In this document: positions 2,024 through 29,648 of the stretch, piece after piece
Layout: every line of letters begins with the position of its first letter
Numbering within the stretch: position 1 is the stretch's first letter
Virus record (IMG/VR): IMGVR_UViG_3300044620_000202
Coordinates: 1-34,847 of that record
Strand: one strand, 5' to 3'
DNA from: a virus
DNA length: 34,847 bases
The notes under the pieces: model-generated
What the model saw: only the letters and a program-made list of their open reading frames with translations
Databases searched by the model: none
Told to the model about the DNA's origin: nothing
Position numbers and translations under genes: made by a program

Positions 2024-4641
2024 TTGATTTCAATTTGATAGTAAGATAGCACAGTTGAATCACCGTTCGCTCCGTTCTGAATAGCGAAGATAAGATATTG
2101 ATTAACCGTCCAATCGATATTGGAGTTGGTCAGTGTCGCATTACCTACACTTGCATCCGTTTGGATCGAAGCATTAGCCTGAGCAGTTTGCGTTACCGTT
2201 GCCGATTTGACAATCGCAGAACGATCCATCCCGTTATACACTTGACCGATTGAAGCAGTAGCAGATGTGATTATCAAAGTAGGTGCAGGAGTTACAATAG
2301 AATCGGCAGTGTTGGCATACACTCTCAAGGTAGTGATCCCTGCACCGCCCGTCTTGCCTACCCTTGCCTTGATCTCTACGATTGCACCAACTGTTATCGT
2401 ATTGGCAGGGATCAACACACTCACCACCTTGTTATTATTGGTGTTGCCCGTTACTGCCGTTTGATTGTTTACATCCTTGTAGATCAATGGCAAGGATGGG
2501 AAGGTAGCCAATGATCCATCGCCTCGCACATACTGAGAAGTCGTGCCTGATGGCGTGTTAAACTTGCCATTGAATGTTGACCAATCCCCACTACTTAAAG
2601 CCCCTCTATTGGATGCTGATGCGGTTGGTAAGTTAAAGGTGTGAGTGCTGCTTGCCGAGCTAATGCCGAAGTCCGTGCCAGTAGTACCCGTTGCGAAGTT
2701 TTGCACTTGGGCTGTTAAGCCGTTCAATGCGTTAAGCCCTGTGGTGAATGTTGTGATTACTTGGCAAAGGTTATTGTCCTCAGTATGCAGCGTTATGTTA
2801 CGCCCCGATGTGGTTACGAAAATGCGTACTGCGAGCCTATCAGTTGCAGCCAATACTGTCGAAGGTACTGCAAGCGCACTAACATACAAATCGACCACCG
2901 TGCCGCCTGTAATCGCTTCTGGATTTGTTGACCCTGATGAGATTAACGTAAAGGTTGCGCCATCGTACTTGTACAGCTCCATGTAAAAGCTCGGATTGCC
3001 GCCGCCACTTGATGCGTTAAAGTAGGTTTCAAAGTTCCAATTTCCTGAAGGGATTGCCAATAGATTTGGGTCGCCTGCATCCGTTATGAATTGCGCAATG
3101 TAGCCATTGCCTTGCGCATTTGTGCGTGTCAAGTTCGTACCACCTCCAAGCACTGGAGTGCGGCTCATTTGAAAGTAAGCATTGCCTCCAATCGTGCCTT
3201 GACTTATTGAGCCGTTGAGGTAATAGTTAACCGATGCGCCACCACCACCGCCCAAAGGAAAATTAGCCAAAGAGCCATCCCCTCGAACGTACTGGCTTAC
3301 AACTCCGTTTGCTGTTATGTCAACGCTTGGAGTAGTGGTTGAGTTAGGTACGTTAACGCTAAAGGCTGGATTTGTCGGGTTCGGCACAGTTGCCGCAACC
3401 GATGTAACAGTACCCGTTGGAATTGTCGGGAATGGTTGAGGTGCGCCCGTTCCATCAAGATAGTCCGTATTCGTTCCCGTTGGAACATCGAACTTGCCGT
3501 TAAAAGTTGACCAATCAGCACTATCTAAATATCCATCAGCCGATGCCGTTGCTTGCGGTATTGCAATATCAGGATTTCCACCGCCCGAAGATGTTAATGG
3601 TGCTGTTGCCGTTACTGATTCAACAATAGTAGAAGGTAAAACGGGGATCGTTGGTTTATTCAGGATCTCAGCCACTCCACTTACAGCATTCCAATCAGAG
3701 TTTACTTGTGCTGCTGGAATGGTTGGCTTATTCAAGATCTGATTGTTGCCACTTGATGAGTTCCAATCTGATGGCTGTTGCACAGTCGGAAAGCCTGCAC
3801 CTAAATTAACCCAATACGTTGCATTAGTTGGAAGGATCGAATCATTGGCAGCGATGCAGCGGTACACATTGCCATTATACCAAACGATGTTACCTACCGC
3901 ATAAGCGTTACCCGTAGCAGCCAAGTGATCTGTGGTAAATGGTAAGGCAATCAAAGCACCACCACCACCACCGCCACCAATGGCGATCAATGGATCTCCT
4001 GCTGTACCGTTTCCGATAATGGTAATGCCATCCACAGCAACCTCAGTCAAGCAAGGATTGCAAGGCAAGAAGTCAGGCAGCGGAATATCGCCCGTAGCAC
4101 AAGTATCGTAGCAGCCATCTTCAGAAGAAGTCAGCACGTTAACATCAATATCAATGCTCACACAAGCCCACTCATAATTCGCAGTTAGGCTCTTGATCTC
4201 GTTAACATATCCGTTCGGCACAACTTCATAAGCAACAACTCCGATGGCTGTCTTGAATTGTGGATCTGATCCTGACACCAAGCGCAGAACTCTTGATGCA
4301 ATCCAATCCTGAGCATCGGCAGAATCACAAGGCAGATGATCCTTTCTAACCACCGCATAAGCACTCAGAGTGAACTTAGTTTCATAAAGCCACTTACACC
4401 CTGCCAACTTTAGAGATTCGTTCTTAGAAACGCTTATTTTGCCACGCTTCGCCCAGAAGATTGTGCCTTGCTTCGCATCGAAGTTGGTAACGGGAATAGC
4501 CTGCCCATTTCCGATGTAGTGAATCCACGCTTTGTCGTTACCATCAGCAGACAATTCACAAAGCCCGTAGATCTGATCGAAGATATTGCCAGCCTCAACT
4601 CGTTGATTCAGCCGTTCGATAATTGTGGAGAGTAGATTCAT
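2020..4641 (-). CDS. Large tail fibre / receptor-binding protein
   Basis: An 873-aa mosaic protein. Residues 1-170 form a distinct N-terminal domain (LLSTIIERLNQRVEAGN...), perhaps a neck or tail attachment domain. A Cys-rich linker and a poly-Gly stretch (about 220-228) follow. Residues 235-280 resemble a CBM5/12-type carbohydrate-binding fold (YAVGNIVWYNGNVYRC). Fibre repeats come next: ILNKPTIP twice (about 305 and 325), DWSTFNGKF twice (about 375 and 695) and QYVRGDGSLA twice. The C-terminal half is beta-rich. It probably binds host surface glycans. The start overlaps the upstream gene by 4 nt. Confidence 0.8.
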   Translation of the reverse strand: MNLLSTIIERLNQRVEAGNIFDQIYGLCELSADGNDKAWIHYIGNGQAIPVTNFDAKQGTIFWAKRGKISVSKNESLKLAGCKWLYETKFTLSAYAVVRKDHLPCDSADAQDWIASRVLRLVSGSDPQFKTAIGVVAYEVVPNGYVNEIKSLTANYEWACVSIDIDVNVLTSSEDGCYDTCATGDIPLPDFLPCNPCLTEVAVDGITIIGNGTAGDPLIAIGGGGGGGALIALPFTTDHLAATGNAYAVGNIVWYNGNVYRCIAANDSILPTNATYWVNLGAGFPTVQQPSDWNSSSGNNQILNKPTIPAAQVNSDWNAVSGVAEILNKPTIPVLPSTIVESVTATAPLTSSGGGNPDIAIPQATASADGYLDSADWSTFNGKFDVPTGTNTDYLDGTGAPQPFPTIPTGTVTSVAATVPNPTNPAFSVNVPNSTTTPSVDITANGVVSQYVRGDGSLANFPLGGGGGASVNYYLNGSISQGTIGGNAYFQMSRTPVLGGGTNLTRTNAQGNGYIAQFITDAGDPNLLAIPSGNWNFETYFNASSGGGNPSFYMELYKYDGATFTLISSGSTNPEAITGGTVVDLYVSALAVPSTVLAATDRLAVRIFVTTSGRNITLHTEDNNLCQVITTFTTGLNALNGLTAQVQNFATGTTGTDFGISSASSTHTFNLPTASASNRGALSSGDWSTFNGKFNTPSGTTSQYVRGDGSLATFPSLPLIYKDVNNQTAVTGNTNNNKVVSVLIPANTITVGAIVEIKARVGKTGGAGITTLRVYANTADSIVTPAPTLIITSATASIGQVYNGMDRSAIVKSATVTQTAQANASIQTDASVGNATLTNSNIDWTVNQYLIFAIQNGANGDSTVLSYYQIEIK

Positions 4642-26932: not shown

Positions 26933-27715
26933 TTAATCAAATGCACAAACTTCACAAGGCTGTGTATCTGTTCCGAGCGAATCCCTGCCAAACTTTGTGT
27001 AAAATTCTGTCTTATCTCTACCCCAGTGCTTTTCAAGTTCATTACTTAGATCAATCGCTTTTTGCCAATAATCGGGAAAATGCTTTTTTACTTTATCGAA
27101 ATCACTGCTTTGCATATTCTTACAAGGCAGGCAATTGTTATGAGGAAAGGTTCTGCTTCCATCGGTGTTTTTGATGTCGTAAATTTTCGGATACCAACCT
27201 ATCTGTTTTTTTACAATCTGAAAACACCATTCGTTCTCCTTGTTTGAAATAGGGAAAGCCTTTGTTGTTTTGGTTTCAGGATTCTTTTTATGCATATTAC
27301 GAATCCTTCTTGATTCTTCTTTCACATATCCAACCAAGTCAACATCGATCCCGTTTTCTTTAGCATACTTCATCATTGGCTCAATCTTCAATATCCTTGT
27401 GCAAGGTGCAATGATTGGGTGAGGTATCATCTTTTGTTCTCTGAAAAATTCTAAAACGCTGTTATTGGTTTGTGAGTAAATCACATTCGAAAACTTTGTT
27501 TCAGCATAGGCAATGCCAGCAATAACGAAAGGCAAAGTGTCGGGTGAATGTTCGTAAAAGTGAGCGTAAAACAAATGCAGTTCTTTAGGCTTCAATTCGT
27601 CTGGATATAAAGCAAGGCAGCATAATACAGCCATTGAATTAATGCCTCCCGAAAGACCTATCAAAACTTTCTGTTGAGAATAGTCTATGTAATTGGTGAA
27701 TAGTTCTTGTTGCAT
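26933..27715 (-). CDS. PP-loop ATPase, PAPS-reductase-like
   Basis: A 260-aa protein of the PAPS reductase/ATP-pyrophosphatase superfamily. The PP-loop is LSGGINSMAV (22-27 SGGINS), where the usual Asp of SGGxDS is Asn. A second block (PCTRILKIEPMMKY) and Cys pairs NNCLPCKNM and PCEVCAF follow, probably metal-binding. Phage members are common but their chemistry is often unknown; proposals include nucleotide or DNA modification and sulfur transfer. No Dnd partner genes are present, so phosphorothioation is not supported. Confidence 0.8.
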   Translation of the reverse strand: MQQELFTNYIDYSQQKVLIGLSGGINSMAVLCCLALYPDELKPKELHLFYAHFYEHSPDTLPFVIAGIAYAETKFSNVIYSQTNNSVLEFFREQKMIPHPIIAPCTRILKIEPMMKYAKENGIDVDLVGYVKEESRRIRNMHKKNPETKTTKAFPISNKENEWCFQIVKKQIGWYPKIYDIKNTDGSRTFPHNNCLPCKNMQSSDFDKVKKHFPDYWQKAIDLSNELEKHWGRDKTEFYTKFGRDSLGTDTQPCEVCAFD

Positions 27716-28480: not shown

Positions 28481-29269
28481 TTAGCCTCCGAAAGTATTTC
28501 TGGTAAGCCTCTCAACTCTGTCGAGGATGGCTTGGTCGTTGTGATGGAGTTGGTGACCGTTTGCTGTGGTGAAAGTTCGCTTGTATTCGGCAGGATTTCG
28601 CTTAACCCAATTTTGGGCTGCGCTGATCCAATTTGCGTAGGTGTATTTTGAGGAAGCATCTGATGATGTTTTTAAGGTTGTATAAACTTTTAGAGGATCG
28701 GTGTCTGGATGAGTTCTTGCTGTTTCGGTTTGATTCCAATGCTCAATGAATAGATCAGGATCATCTGCATAGATCGAATCTGCAAAGCGGTGATCTTTCT
28801 TTTTTTGCGGAACTTTTTTCTTTTCAAGATTGGGGGTGTATAGTTGGATTGAATCAGGTTGGATCGTTACGGGGTTCGATTCGATAGAATCGGTAGAAAT
28901 AATAACTCTATCTATACCTTTTACTTTCTCTGTATCTTTTACTGTAACTGTTACTGTATCTTTATCTGCTACATTTGCTAAGCTAACCTTAGCATTTGGT
29001 AGCATTTGGTAGCTTTTGCTTGCCTTTGCTTCGCCTCCTTTTTTCCCTGCTTCTCGCCTAACTTCCAAGACTTTAGAATATTTATCTACATCCCGATCCA
29101 TCTGCATCTTTATTGGATTGAAGATAAAAAACATTGGATCTGATGGCTCGCAGCATTTGCCAGTAAGGAAATACTCAAACATCATTCTGGTAAGTTTACC
29201 AAGTTGCTCATCGGATAAATACTTCAAGGTATCATATCCATCGGCATACATTAGGAAAGATTTTTTCAT
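28481..29269 (-). CDS. Putative replication initiator (DUF6291-like)
   Basis: A 262-aa protein. The N-terminal 90 residues (KKSFLMYADGYDTLKYLSDE...; MQMDRDVDKYSKVLEVRREA, then GKKGGEAK) fit the DUF6291-type domain found in phage replisome organisers. A low-complexity middle follows, and the C-terminal 80 residues (WNQTETARTHPD, YANWISAAQNWVKRNPAEYK) form a second domain. Its middle coding region carries iteron-like repeats, as in lambda O. Translation starts just after a structured leader. Confidence 0.7.
   Translation of the reverse strand: MKKSFLMYADGYDTLKYLSDEQLGKLTRMMFEYFLTGKCCEPSDPMFFIFNPIKMQMDRDVDKYSKVLEVRREAGKKGGEAKASKSYQMLPNAKVSLANVADKDTVTVTVKDTEKVKGIDRVIISTDSIESNPVTIQPDSIQLYTPNLEKKKVPQKKKDHRFADSIYADDPDLFIEHWNQTETARTHPDTDPLKVYTTLKTSSDASSKYTYANWISAAQNWVKRNPAEYKRTFTTANGHQLHHNDQAILDRVERLTRNTFGG
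28840..29010. other. Putative replication origin inside the initiator gene
   Basis: Plus-strand repeats include AGCATTTGGT twice in tandem (28991-29010), with a third CATTTG at 28972; the CATTTG starts are 21 and 10 bp apart, in helical phase. TGCTAAG/CTTAGCA (28976-28994) is a 7-bp inverted repeat, and CGATTC-GATA-GAATCG lies near 28878. An AT-rich stretch with TGTATCTTT repeats lies between them. Iterons within the initiator gene are the lambda-type arrangement. Part of the repetition could simply reflect repetitive coding. Confidence 0.4.
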
Positions 29270-29275
29270 CGCAAT

Positions 29276-29380
29276 AAAAAAGCCCCATACAAGCTGCGGT
29301 CAGAGCGGATCAACAGAATCAACTGTCTTTCCTCGCAGCCCGTATAGGGCGATAAATTTCTTTTCATTCAGGCTCTGACC
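29276..29380 (-). ncRNA. Structured leader RNA, pseudoknot-like, upstream of the replication gene
   Basis: In transcript order: a = GGTCAGAGC (29380-29372), b = GCCCTATACGGGCTGCG (29350-29334), a' = GCTCTGACC (29306-29298), b' = CGCAGCTTGTATGGGGC (29298-29282), then six T. a pairs with a' (9 bp) and b with b' (17 bp including G-U pairs), the order of an H-type pseudoknot. A small ACAG/CTGT hairpin lies between b and a'. The T tract ends 6 nt before the ATG. It could be an attenuator, riboswitch-like element or pseudoknot-controlled leader. No gene is seen in 29270-29405. Confidence 0.65.
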
Positions 29381-29392
29381 TCTGAACTACCA

Positions 29393-29400
29393 CAAAGATA
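29393..29400 (-). promoter_or_regulatory. -7 promoter box for the replication operon
   Basis: The minus strand reads TATCTTTG, 6 nt after the stop of the lipoprotein gene. The leader to ATG 29269 is about 120 nt and holds the structured element. The -33 element is not obvious. The box is preceded by T6, like the one at 6264. Confidence 0.55.
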
Positions 29401-29405
29401 AAAAA

Positions 29406-29648
29406 TTAATAGCAGTTAACCGTAGTTTTCACAGTTACTTTTTTGCCATTCAATGTTGTACTTGTAGTGCCTTCCATTCCGACCTTAAATGCCTTGACAT
29501 CTCGGTTGGTCATTCTGCACTTTTCTATTCTGGTCATTTGCGTTTGCGATTCAAAGCCAGTGGTCGTTGTTGTTACCCTGCAATCGTAGCACTTTCTACA
29601 ACTTGATAGAGAGGCAAGCAGGATCAGAATAGATAGGGTTGTTTTCAT
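29406..29648 (-). CDS. Small lipoprotein
   Basis: An 80-aa protein with a lipoprotein signal peptide: MKTTLSILILLASLSSCRKC with the lipobox LSSC, predicting acylation at Cys17. The mature part is short and Thr-rich with further Cys residues (CYDC, KCRM, NCY). It would be exported and anchored in a host membrane. Possible roles are superinfection exclusion or an outer-membrane spanin subunit; its position among early genes favours exclusion. It overlaps the nuclease gene by 4 nt. Confidence 0.7.
   Translation of the reverse strand: MKTTLSILILLASLSSCRKCYDCRVTTTTTGFESQTQMTRIEKCRMTNRDVKAFKVGMEGTTSTTLNGKKVTVKTTVNCY

Follow-up and report, generated by a model that had tools for sequence, protein, structure and literature searches.

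H-type pseudoknot leaders that end in a terminator are known from the fluoride/crcB, preQ1 and SAM-II riboswitches. Pseudoknots are also found in the rep mRNA leaders of IncI-alpha/IncB-type plasmids, and in the Pistol ribozyme a hairpin loop is paired to an internal junction. In the AbiF ncRNA/RCd22 (RF03085), according to excerpts of PMC12373285, a promoter and a structured RNA are followed by a terminator and a gene fed by read-through, with transcription mostly stopping at the terminator. The phage element described here shares features with all of these. As in the three riboswitches, an H-type pseudoknot with an adjoining terminator-like helix occupies the 5' leader of a downstream ORF. 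As in the IncI-alpha/IncB rep leaders, the pseudoknot lies ahead of a replication-initiation gene and its loop sequence varies among relatives, and as in Pistol, a hairpin loop pairs with an internal junction. The overall layout of a promoter, a structured RNA of about 100-130 nt, a terminator-like end and a gene behind it is that of AbiF/RCd22.

The element was analyzed in a window that comprises a complete virus record of 34,847 bases; the positions below are window coordinates. Nearly all genes of the window are carried by the minus strand, which also carries the element, a leader of about 120 nt located between an 80-aa ORF (29406-29648) and a 262-aa DUF6291 ORF (28481-29269), all on (-). 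The product of the latter matches PF19808 (E 2.3e-20) and is very probably a replication initiator, as discussed below. The 80-aa ORF shows a signal-peptide-like start and cysteines and has no Pfam or PHROG match; in close relatives, similar ORFs end just upstream of the element. Two genes past the initiator, the window encodes a PAPS-reductase/PP-loop-like protein (26933-27715 (-), phrog_424, E 3.6e-21), a possible DNA-modification or sulfur gene.

Read 5' to 3' on the minus strand, the leader consists of a promoter box, a hairpin P0 with strand a in its loop, an A-rich linker, strand b, an inner hairpin P3, strand a', strand b', six T and an ATG. An earlier sequence-only reading had proposed the a-b-a'-b' order together with the box, the six T and the start codon, and the minus-strand sequence agrees with it on each of these. 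The -7 box TATCTTTG (29393..29400) is of the Bacteroidota TAnnTTTG type. In hairpin P0 (29367..29386), TTCAG at 29386-29382 pairs with CTGAA at 29371-29367; in relatives this stem is changed on both sides and reaches up to 7 bp, and its 10-nt loop contains strand a. In its full 9-nt version, strand a (GGTCAGAGC, 29380-29372) is the 9-bp complement of a' (GCTCTGACC, 29306-29298). The pseudoknot is formed by their 8-nt parts GTCAGAGC (29372..29379) and GCTCTGAC (29299..29306), which covary and pair 8/8 by Watson-Crick pairs in relatives. The A-rich linker (29351..29366), which lies on the loop 3 side of the H-type pseudoknot and has a conserved A run at alignment columns 34-37, connects P0 to strand b (GCCCTATACGGGCTGCG, 29334..29350). 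This strand pairs with b' (CGCAGCTTGTATGGGGC, 29282..29298), the 3' arm of the terminator-like helix P2, and b' abuts a' without a gap. P2 encloses P3 (29307..29332; GGA...TCC and GACAG/CTGTT), a hairpin of variable length with covarying pairs. The six T of the U-tract form the terminator-like tail (29276..29281), and the start codon of the DUF6291 gene lies at 29269-29267.

The a/a' helix of 9 bp is Watson-Crick throughout, the b/b' helix of 17 bp includes G-U pairs, and no other helices of that size occur in the 123-nt leader. Both had been named in the sequence-only reading and both exist, but not at full length together: base 29298 belongs to a/a' as well as to P2, so that 8 + 17 bp can coexist. 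While a/a' and b/b' were recognized correctly, P0 and P3 had been overlooked. P0 and a/a' constitute the H-type topology, in which the loop strand pairs outside its stem, both stems covary, loop 1 is short (2 nt), loop 2 has 0 nt and the long loop 3 includes the A-rich linker, b and P3. We infer that P0, a/a' and P2 are able to stack end to end. The fold of the window sequence alone is beyond chance: a crossing helix pair of such size appeared in 0/2000 dinucleotide shuffles of the leader, and the MFE of the leader is -44.2 kcal/mol (z -3.76), the pseudoknot not being counted. A simple terminator scan missed the site because it permits only loops of 3-8 nt.

Relatives were collected from IMG/VR using both protein and nucleotide searches. 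A protein search with the DUF6291 gene of the window resulted in 11 loci, and two DNA patterns resulted in 63 and at least 119 stretches, so the family is larger than counted here; RNA-pattern and protein-based searches together gave more than 100 element-bearing loci. A regular expression that is blind to strand a was applied to the loci collected and returned 95 distinct hits. An exact upstream complement (GT plus 5 nt, to the bases before ACC) was present in 84 of them, in 15 versions. The other 11 hits, located on GC-richer contigs (GC 0.49-0.78), had neither the complement nor the other features and were excluded from the element set afterwards. By chance, complementarity was seen in only 2 of 5874 mismatched a/a' pairs (AT-rich hits with differing versions). 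The working set comprises 78 distinct elements among the matches listed, 44 of which were aligned with MAFFT after removal of near-duplicates (alignment A1). The search pattern had fixed GGGCTGCG, ACCGCAGC and GGG, which for this reason do not vary in A1. As a bias control, we therefore used the DUF6291 protein of a relative instead of the RNA pattern and obtained 26 loci, 23 of which (15 distinct elements) showed a strong model match just upstream of the gene. Of the remaining three, L172 and L173 carry a divergent form at 23 bits and L162 is truncated before the gene start. The two protein searches together supplied the 20 rows of alignment A4, with the window row included and members with TTTACG left out.

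In A1, pairs altered on both sides were found in all five helices, including 5 of the 7 pairs of P0 and 5 of the 17 pairs of P2. For the pseudoknot, all 44 rows are paired at all 8 pairs, with both-side changes at 5 of them. The covariation score was 0.397 compared to 0.159 +/- 0.008 for shuffled alignments (0/500 as high), and the strongest signals all fell within the proposed helices. Beyond the alignment, a/a' is fully Watson-Crick (8/8) in 78/78 distinct elements and 8/8 complementary in all 15 distinct protein-found elements. A4 confirmed this picture with a score of 0.354 versus 0.155 and compensatory double changes at 6 of the 8 pseudoknot pairs, including, in L009, a G-C to C-G exchange at one of the pairs held constant in A1 by the search pattern. 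Protein-found relatives also show a change from GCTGCG/CGCAGC to TTTACG/CGTAAA in the upper part of P2 and from GGGC to TGGC or AGGC. Taken together, covariation is strong enough to yield the fold without experiments. The pseudoknot topology and the selection on structure suggested by the sequence-only reading are thus upheld by the shuffles, the a/a' pairing and the strong covariation of every helix in A1 and A4, and the absence of covariation that would have spoken against it was not encountered.

The covariation scan of the 44 sequences revealed neither a further helix nor a conserved competing antiterminator helix. A local GCCC/GGGC hairpin within b was considered as an antiterminator and seemed invariant, but GGGCTGCG was pattern-fixed, and the hairpin is broken in the protein-found loci L157, L160 and L171. 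Conserved unpaired bases are few (mainly A8, the linker A run, a linker T, A63, A80, A87 and the U-tract). The sequence-only reading had considered that the leader may sense a ligand, a protein or a phage factor and gate expression of the replication gene; the lack of a competing helix and the small number of conserved unpaired bases argue mildly against a classical ligand switch.

The signals flanking the fold are kept as well. A TAnnTTT[GA] box ends 2-5 nt 5' of P0 in 77/78 distinct elements, but only in 2/309 control windows; TAnnTTTG is given as the consensus for Bacteroides and Flavobacterium in the excerpted text of PMC7366714. At least five T within 9 nt past the GGG were also present in 77/78 distinct elements, with the U-tract being interrupted in a few members, for example L069 (GGGCAAATTATTTATG). 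At the sequence level, a stem and a U-tract are therefore present between promoter and ORF, as in intrinsic-terminator attenuators and riboswitches. The host phages are probably those of Bacteroidota bacteria, and among uncultured phages with promoters of the Bacteroidota type, the RNA class seems to be widespread. The ATG of a co-directional ORF follows closely behind the GGG in 92 of 95 loci, mostly after 9-26 nt; this survey left out 14 loci, namely the 11 hits without complement, duplicates of two and the window copy (L012). For L049 and L101, the ATG assigned by the script is an earlier in-frame one inside the stem, and for two of the three exceptions (L028, L115) the whole record does show such a close gene.

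To place the element in its genomic context, we searched 30 phage records as a whole. Twenty-two of these had been found via the RNA pattern (14 with DUF6291, 8 with an O-like protein), and the rest via the protein or as the window itself. In 30/30 records, the first or second gene behind the element is a replication initiator, in line with the earlier proposal of a leader ahead of a replication gene. In 22 records this is PF19808 (DUF6291), with a start no more than about 250 nt past the RNA, and in the other 8 the first or second gene is an O-like/DnaD-like initiator, a MFxYFN-type protein. Six of the seven scanned MFxYFN proteins match replication-initiation, O-like or DnaD-like PHROGs; the seventh (G026) matches only an uncharacterized PHROG, which is matched by others of the type too, and the eighth protein (G011) was assigned to the type by sequence similarity. 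A DnaB-like helicase comes next in all three records scanned for it (G004, G011, G021). The DUF6291-type protein of L082 and the O-like protein of G011 have a C-terminal region in common (45% identity over 180 aa). This link between a DUF6291 relative and an O-like initiator is the basis for regarding the DUF6291 gene of the window as a replication initiator. The initiator type switches between records and the RNA keeps its place. In some loci, the first ORF encodes a C5 methylase, an N6/N4 methylase, a helicase, an HNH or PD-(D/E)XK nuclease or a small protein, which indicates that the leader is not bound to a single gene. In all 29 records analyzed in this respect, the majority of ORFs is on the strand of the element. 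The DUF6291-type and O-like initiators at L082:2899-3567 and L215:6226-6951 have the same C-terminal region and different N-terminal parts, which suggests, at the level of sequence, domain swapping among phage replication initiators.

The window contains a single copy of the element, and when model scores were required to exceed 60 bits, one copy each was counted in 28 of the 29 virus records. An origin from a transposon-derived repeat, which would have contradicted the sequence-only reading, does not fit this distribution. The exception, G006 (52,227 bases), has two elements (3499-3614 and 38215-38325) with different words, each before its own DUF6291 gene; the record may represent a large phage in which a module is duplicated, or a joint assembly of two phages. 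In G014, a divergent copy (29.5 bits) is found in addition to the main element, 1 kb upstream of it. The divergent form of L172, L173, L113 and L193-L196 is distinguished by an additional hairpin at the 5' end, GTCC-AAAC-GGAC, and by complementary words of its own (for example L113:9344-9470, L172:2395-2499 and L193:4086-4195).

Database searches returned no known counterpart, in agreement with the sequence-only reading, which had recognized no riboswitch or ribozyme class. Rfam 15 gave 0 matches in the whole window, and for 29200-29460 only a chance match to sn3071 (14.2 bits against a threshold of 40). In GTDB species genomes, a pattern search gave 8 matches, none of which is an element according to the model (best 12.7 bits); this pattern finds only 60 of the 78 known elements, so that about one quarter would be missed. 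When the phylum to which the Bacteroidales MAG behind L140 belongs was scanned with the model, 0 of 395 genomes matched. Blastn with three elements detected none in cultured phages, and the model detected none in the whole records of Flavobacterium phage 11b and two Riemerella phages. A description of this RNA was not found in open-licence PMC papers, and the excerpts of PMC2864571, PMC8040213 and PMC12286853 name no such RNA. We conclude that the RNA class is new and absent from Rfam 15, although pseudoknotted leaders with a terminator-like end are already known as a kind. What is new here is the fold and the genomic place, while the function is predicted only.

The differences to the systems introduced above are in agreement with this view. 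In contrast to the fluoride/crcB, preQ1 and SAM-II riboswitches, no Rfam match and no competing helix were found, conserved unpaired bases are few, the pseudoknot sequence is freely swapped and the downstream genes are replication initiators. Unlike AbiF/RCd22, the element has no RF03085 match, a downstream gene that is not Abi_2 and a pseudoknot with variable words. It differs from Pistol in the swapped order of P3 and a', the missing Rfam match and the lack of a conserved unpaired catalytic core. Whereas the pseudoknot of the element adjoins a terminator-like helix, this is not the case for the IncI-alpha/IncB rep leaders, and an antisense TAnnTTTG box within the element was seen in 0/78 elements, for which reason an antisense-controlled plasmid rep leader was rejected. 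A ToxI-like type III toxin-antitoxin RNA was discarded as well, as there are no tandem repeats, a single copy in the window and one in most of the 29 records, and the genes downstream are replication initiators and not a toxin. A leader peptide was also dismissed: the frame is not kept, with the b-to-a' distance modulo 3 distributed 41/30/7 among the 78 elements, and an open frame runs through the leader in 38 of them, in changing frames.

The 8-nt pseudoknot word exists in 15 versions in the 78 elements, four of which account for most elements. On a tree of the remaining element, built on about 100 nt and therefore noisy, the word changes at least 35 times, compared to 45-55 times for shuffled labels. 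Between near-identical elements, word changes come as blocks of 2-3 base pairs; between L018 and L023, for instance, there is a single difference in 100 positions outside the pseudoknot and a difference of two base pairs inside. In pairs with less than 5% divergence, the per-site difference is about 4-fold higher in the pseudoknot than outside, a rate that is not firm, as only 3 of 19 disjoint close pairs have a word change. All pseudoknot cells in A1 (columns 10-17 with 91-98, corresponding to window 29379-29372 with 29306-29299) are G-C or A-U, with 0/352 G-U, whereas G-U pairs occur in P0 and are frequent in P2. The helix belongs to the fastest-changing parts of the element, but its complementarity is never lost. 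Structural helices do not usually behave in this way, which suggests selection on the sequence identity of the word besides its shape. Outside the element, the own word is not enriched within the same phage (9 matches versus 9.75 +/- 2.7), and the same holds for the word elsewhere across 29 records (30 matches versus 25 +/- 5.9). No protein family tracks the word beyond chance (40 family tests over 29 records, smallest p 0.01).

Judged from sequence, the most likely reading, with roughly balanced chances, is that the element is a cis-acting pseudoknot-terminator leader of the phage replication-initiation operon, which would limit initiator expression by early termination. Transcription would start at P0 or within a few bases, and the nascent RNA would fold in the order P0, P3, a/a' pseudoknot and P2. 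P2 and the U-tract would then act as an intrinsic terminator, and the majority of transcripts would be released as a compact RNA about 110 nt long. The initiator gene, with its start codon about 10-25 nt downstream, would be supplied by read-through. How much read-through occurs, and hence how much initiator is made, would depend on the pseudoknot fold and whatever binds it; both termination and its control are inferred. This reading is supported by the covariation, the frequencies of box and U-tract (77/78 each), the initiator in 30/30 records, the ATG in 92/95 loci and the similarity to the AbiF/RCd22 layout. It is weakened by the missing competing helix, which leaves no visible ON/OFF switch, and by the interrupted U-tracts and varied first genes. 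Moreover, a small RNA that acts in trans and merely precedes an unrelated gene would, in a compact genome, give much the same picture. Such a free-standing small RNA gene, whose trans targets would be RNA or protein of the host or the phage, with the downstream gene served by incidental read-through, is a possible though less probable explanation. It would account for a predicted RNA that begins at P0 and ends at the U-tract, for the lack of an alternative fold in the scan and for the little constrained first gene, but not for the constant position at the head of the initiator operon, and the word counts reveal no base-pairing partner in the same phage.

The position of P0, 2-5 nt past the promoter box, means that the 5' end would be paired, and with a start codon close behind, hairpin and pseudoknot might instead stabilize the mRNA or help to present its start codon, with the U-tract as a spacer. 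This seems unlikely, since a conserved U-tract after a GC-rich stem base fits an intrinsic terminator and is needless for a stabilizer. For the lambda oop RNA beside gene O, a role in origin opening or priming was proposed, and by analogy the terminated transcript might aid replication in this way. The adjacency to initiator genes in every record would suit such a role, which we nevertheless consider very improbable, as the structure is kept at the RNA level in P0 and P2, where G-U pairs are common. Least probable of all is a DNA-level site, in which a/a' would be an inverted repeat in duplex DNA read by a sequence-specific phage protein, with words changing along with the protein. Fast word turnover and a pseudoknot free of G-U, while P2 has many, would be expected in this case, but a is located precisely within the loop of an RNA hairpin that covaries, and the family tests identified no protein that follows the word.

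Returning to the cis-acting leader, a quite improbable extension, again read from the words, is a word-coded copy-number or immunity device, in which a or a' of the released leader RNA would pair with nascent leaders of the same word and shift initiator read-through. This would account for the exact complementarity without G-U, the fixed place ahead of two initiator types and the block-wise word changes between elements that are about 99% identical elsewhere. If true, leader RNA would accumulate with genome copies, and phages with different words would not cross-regulate, so that words would diversify like incompatibility groups. For the phages that carry it, the element would represent an RNA at the control point of DNA replication that is retained while the initiator gene behind it is swapped.
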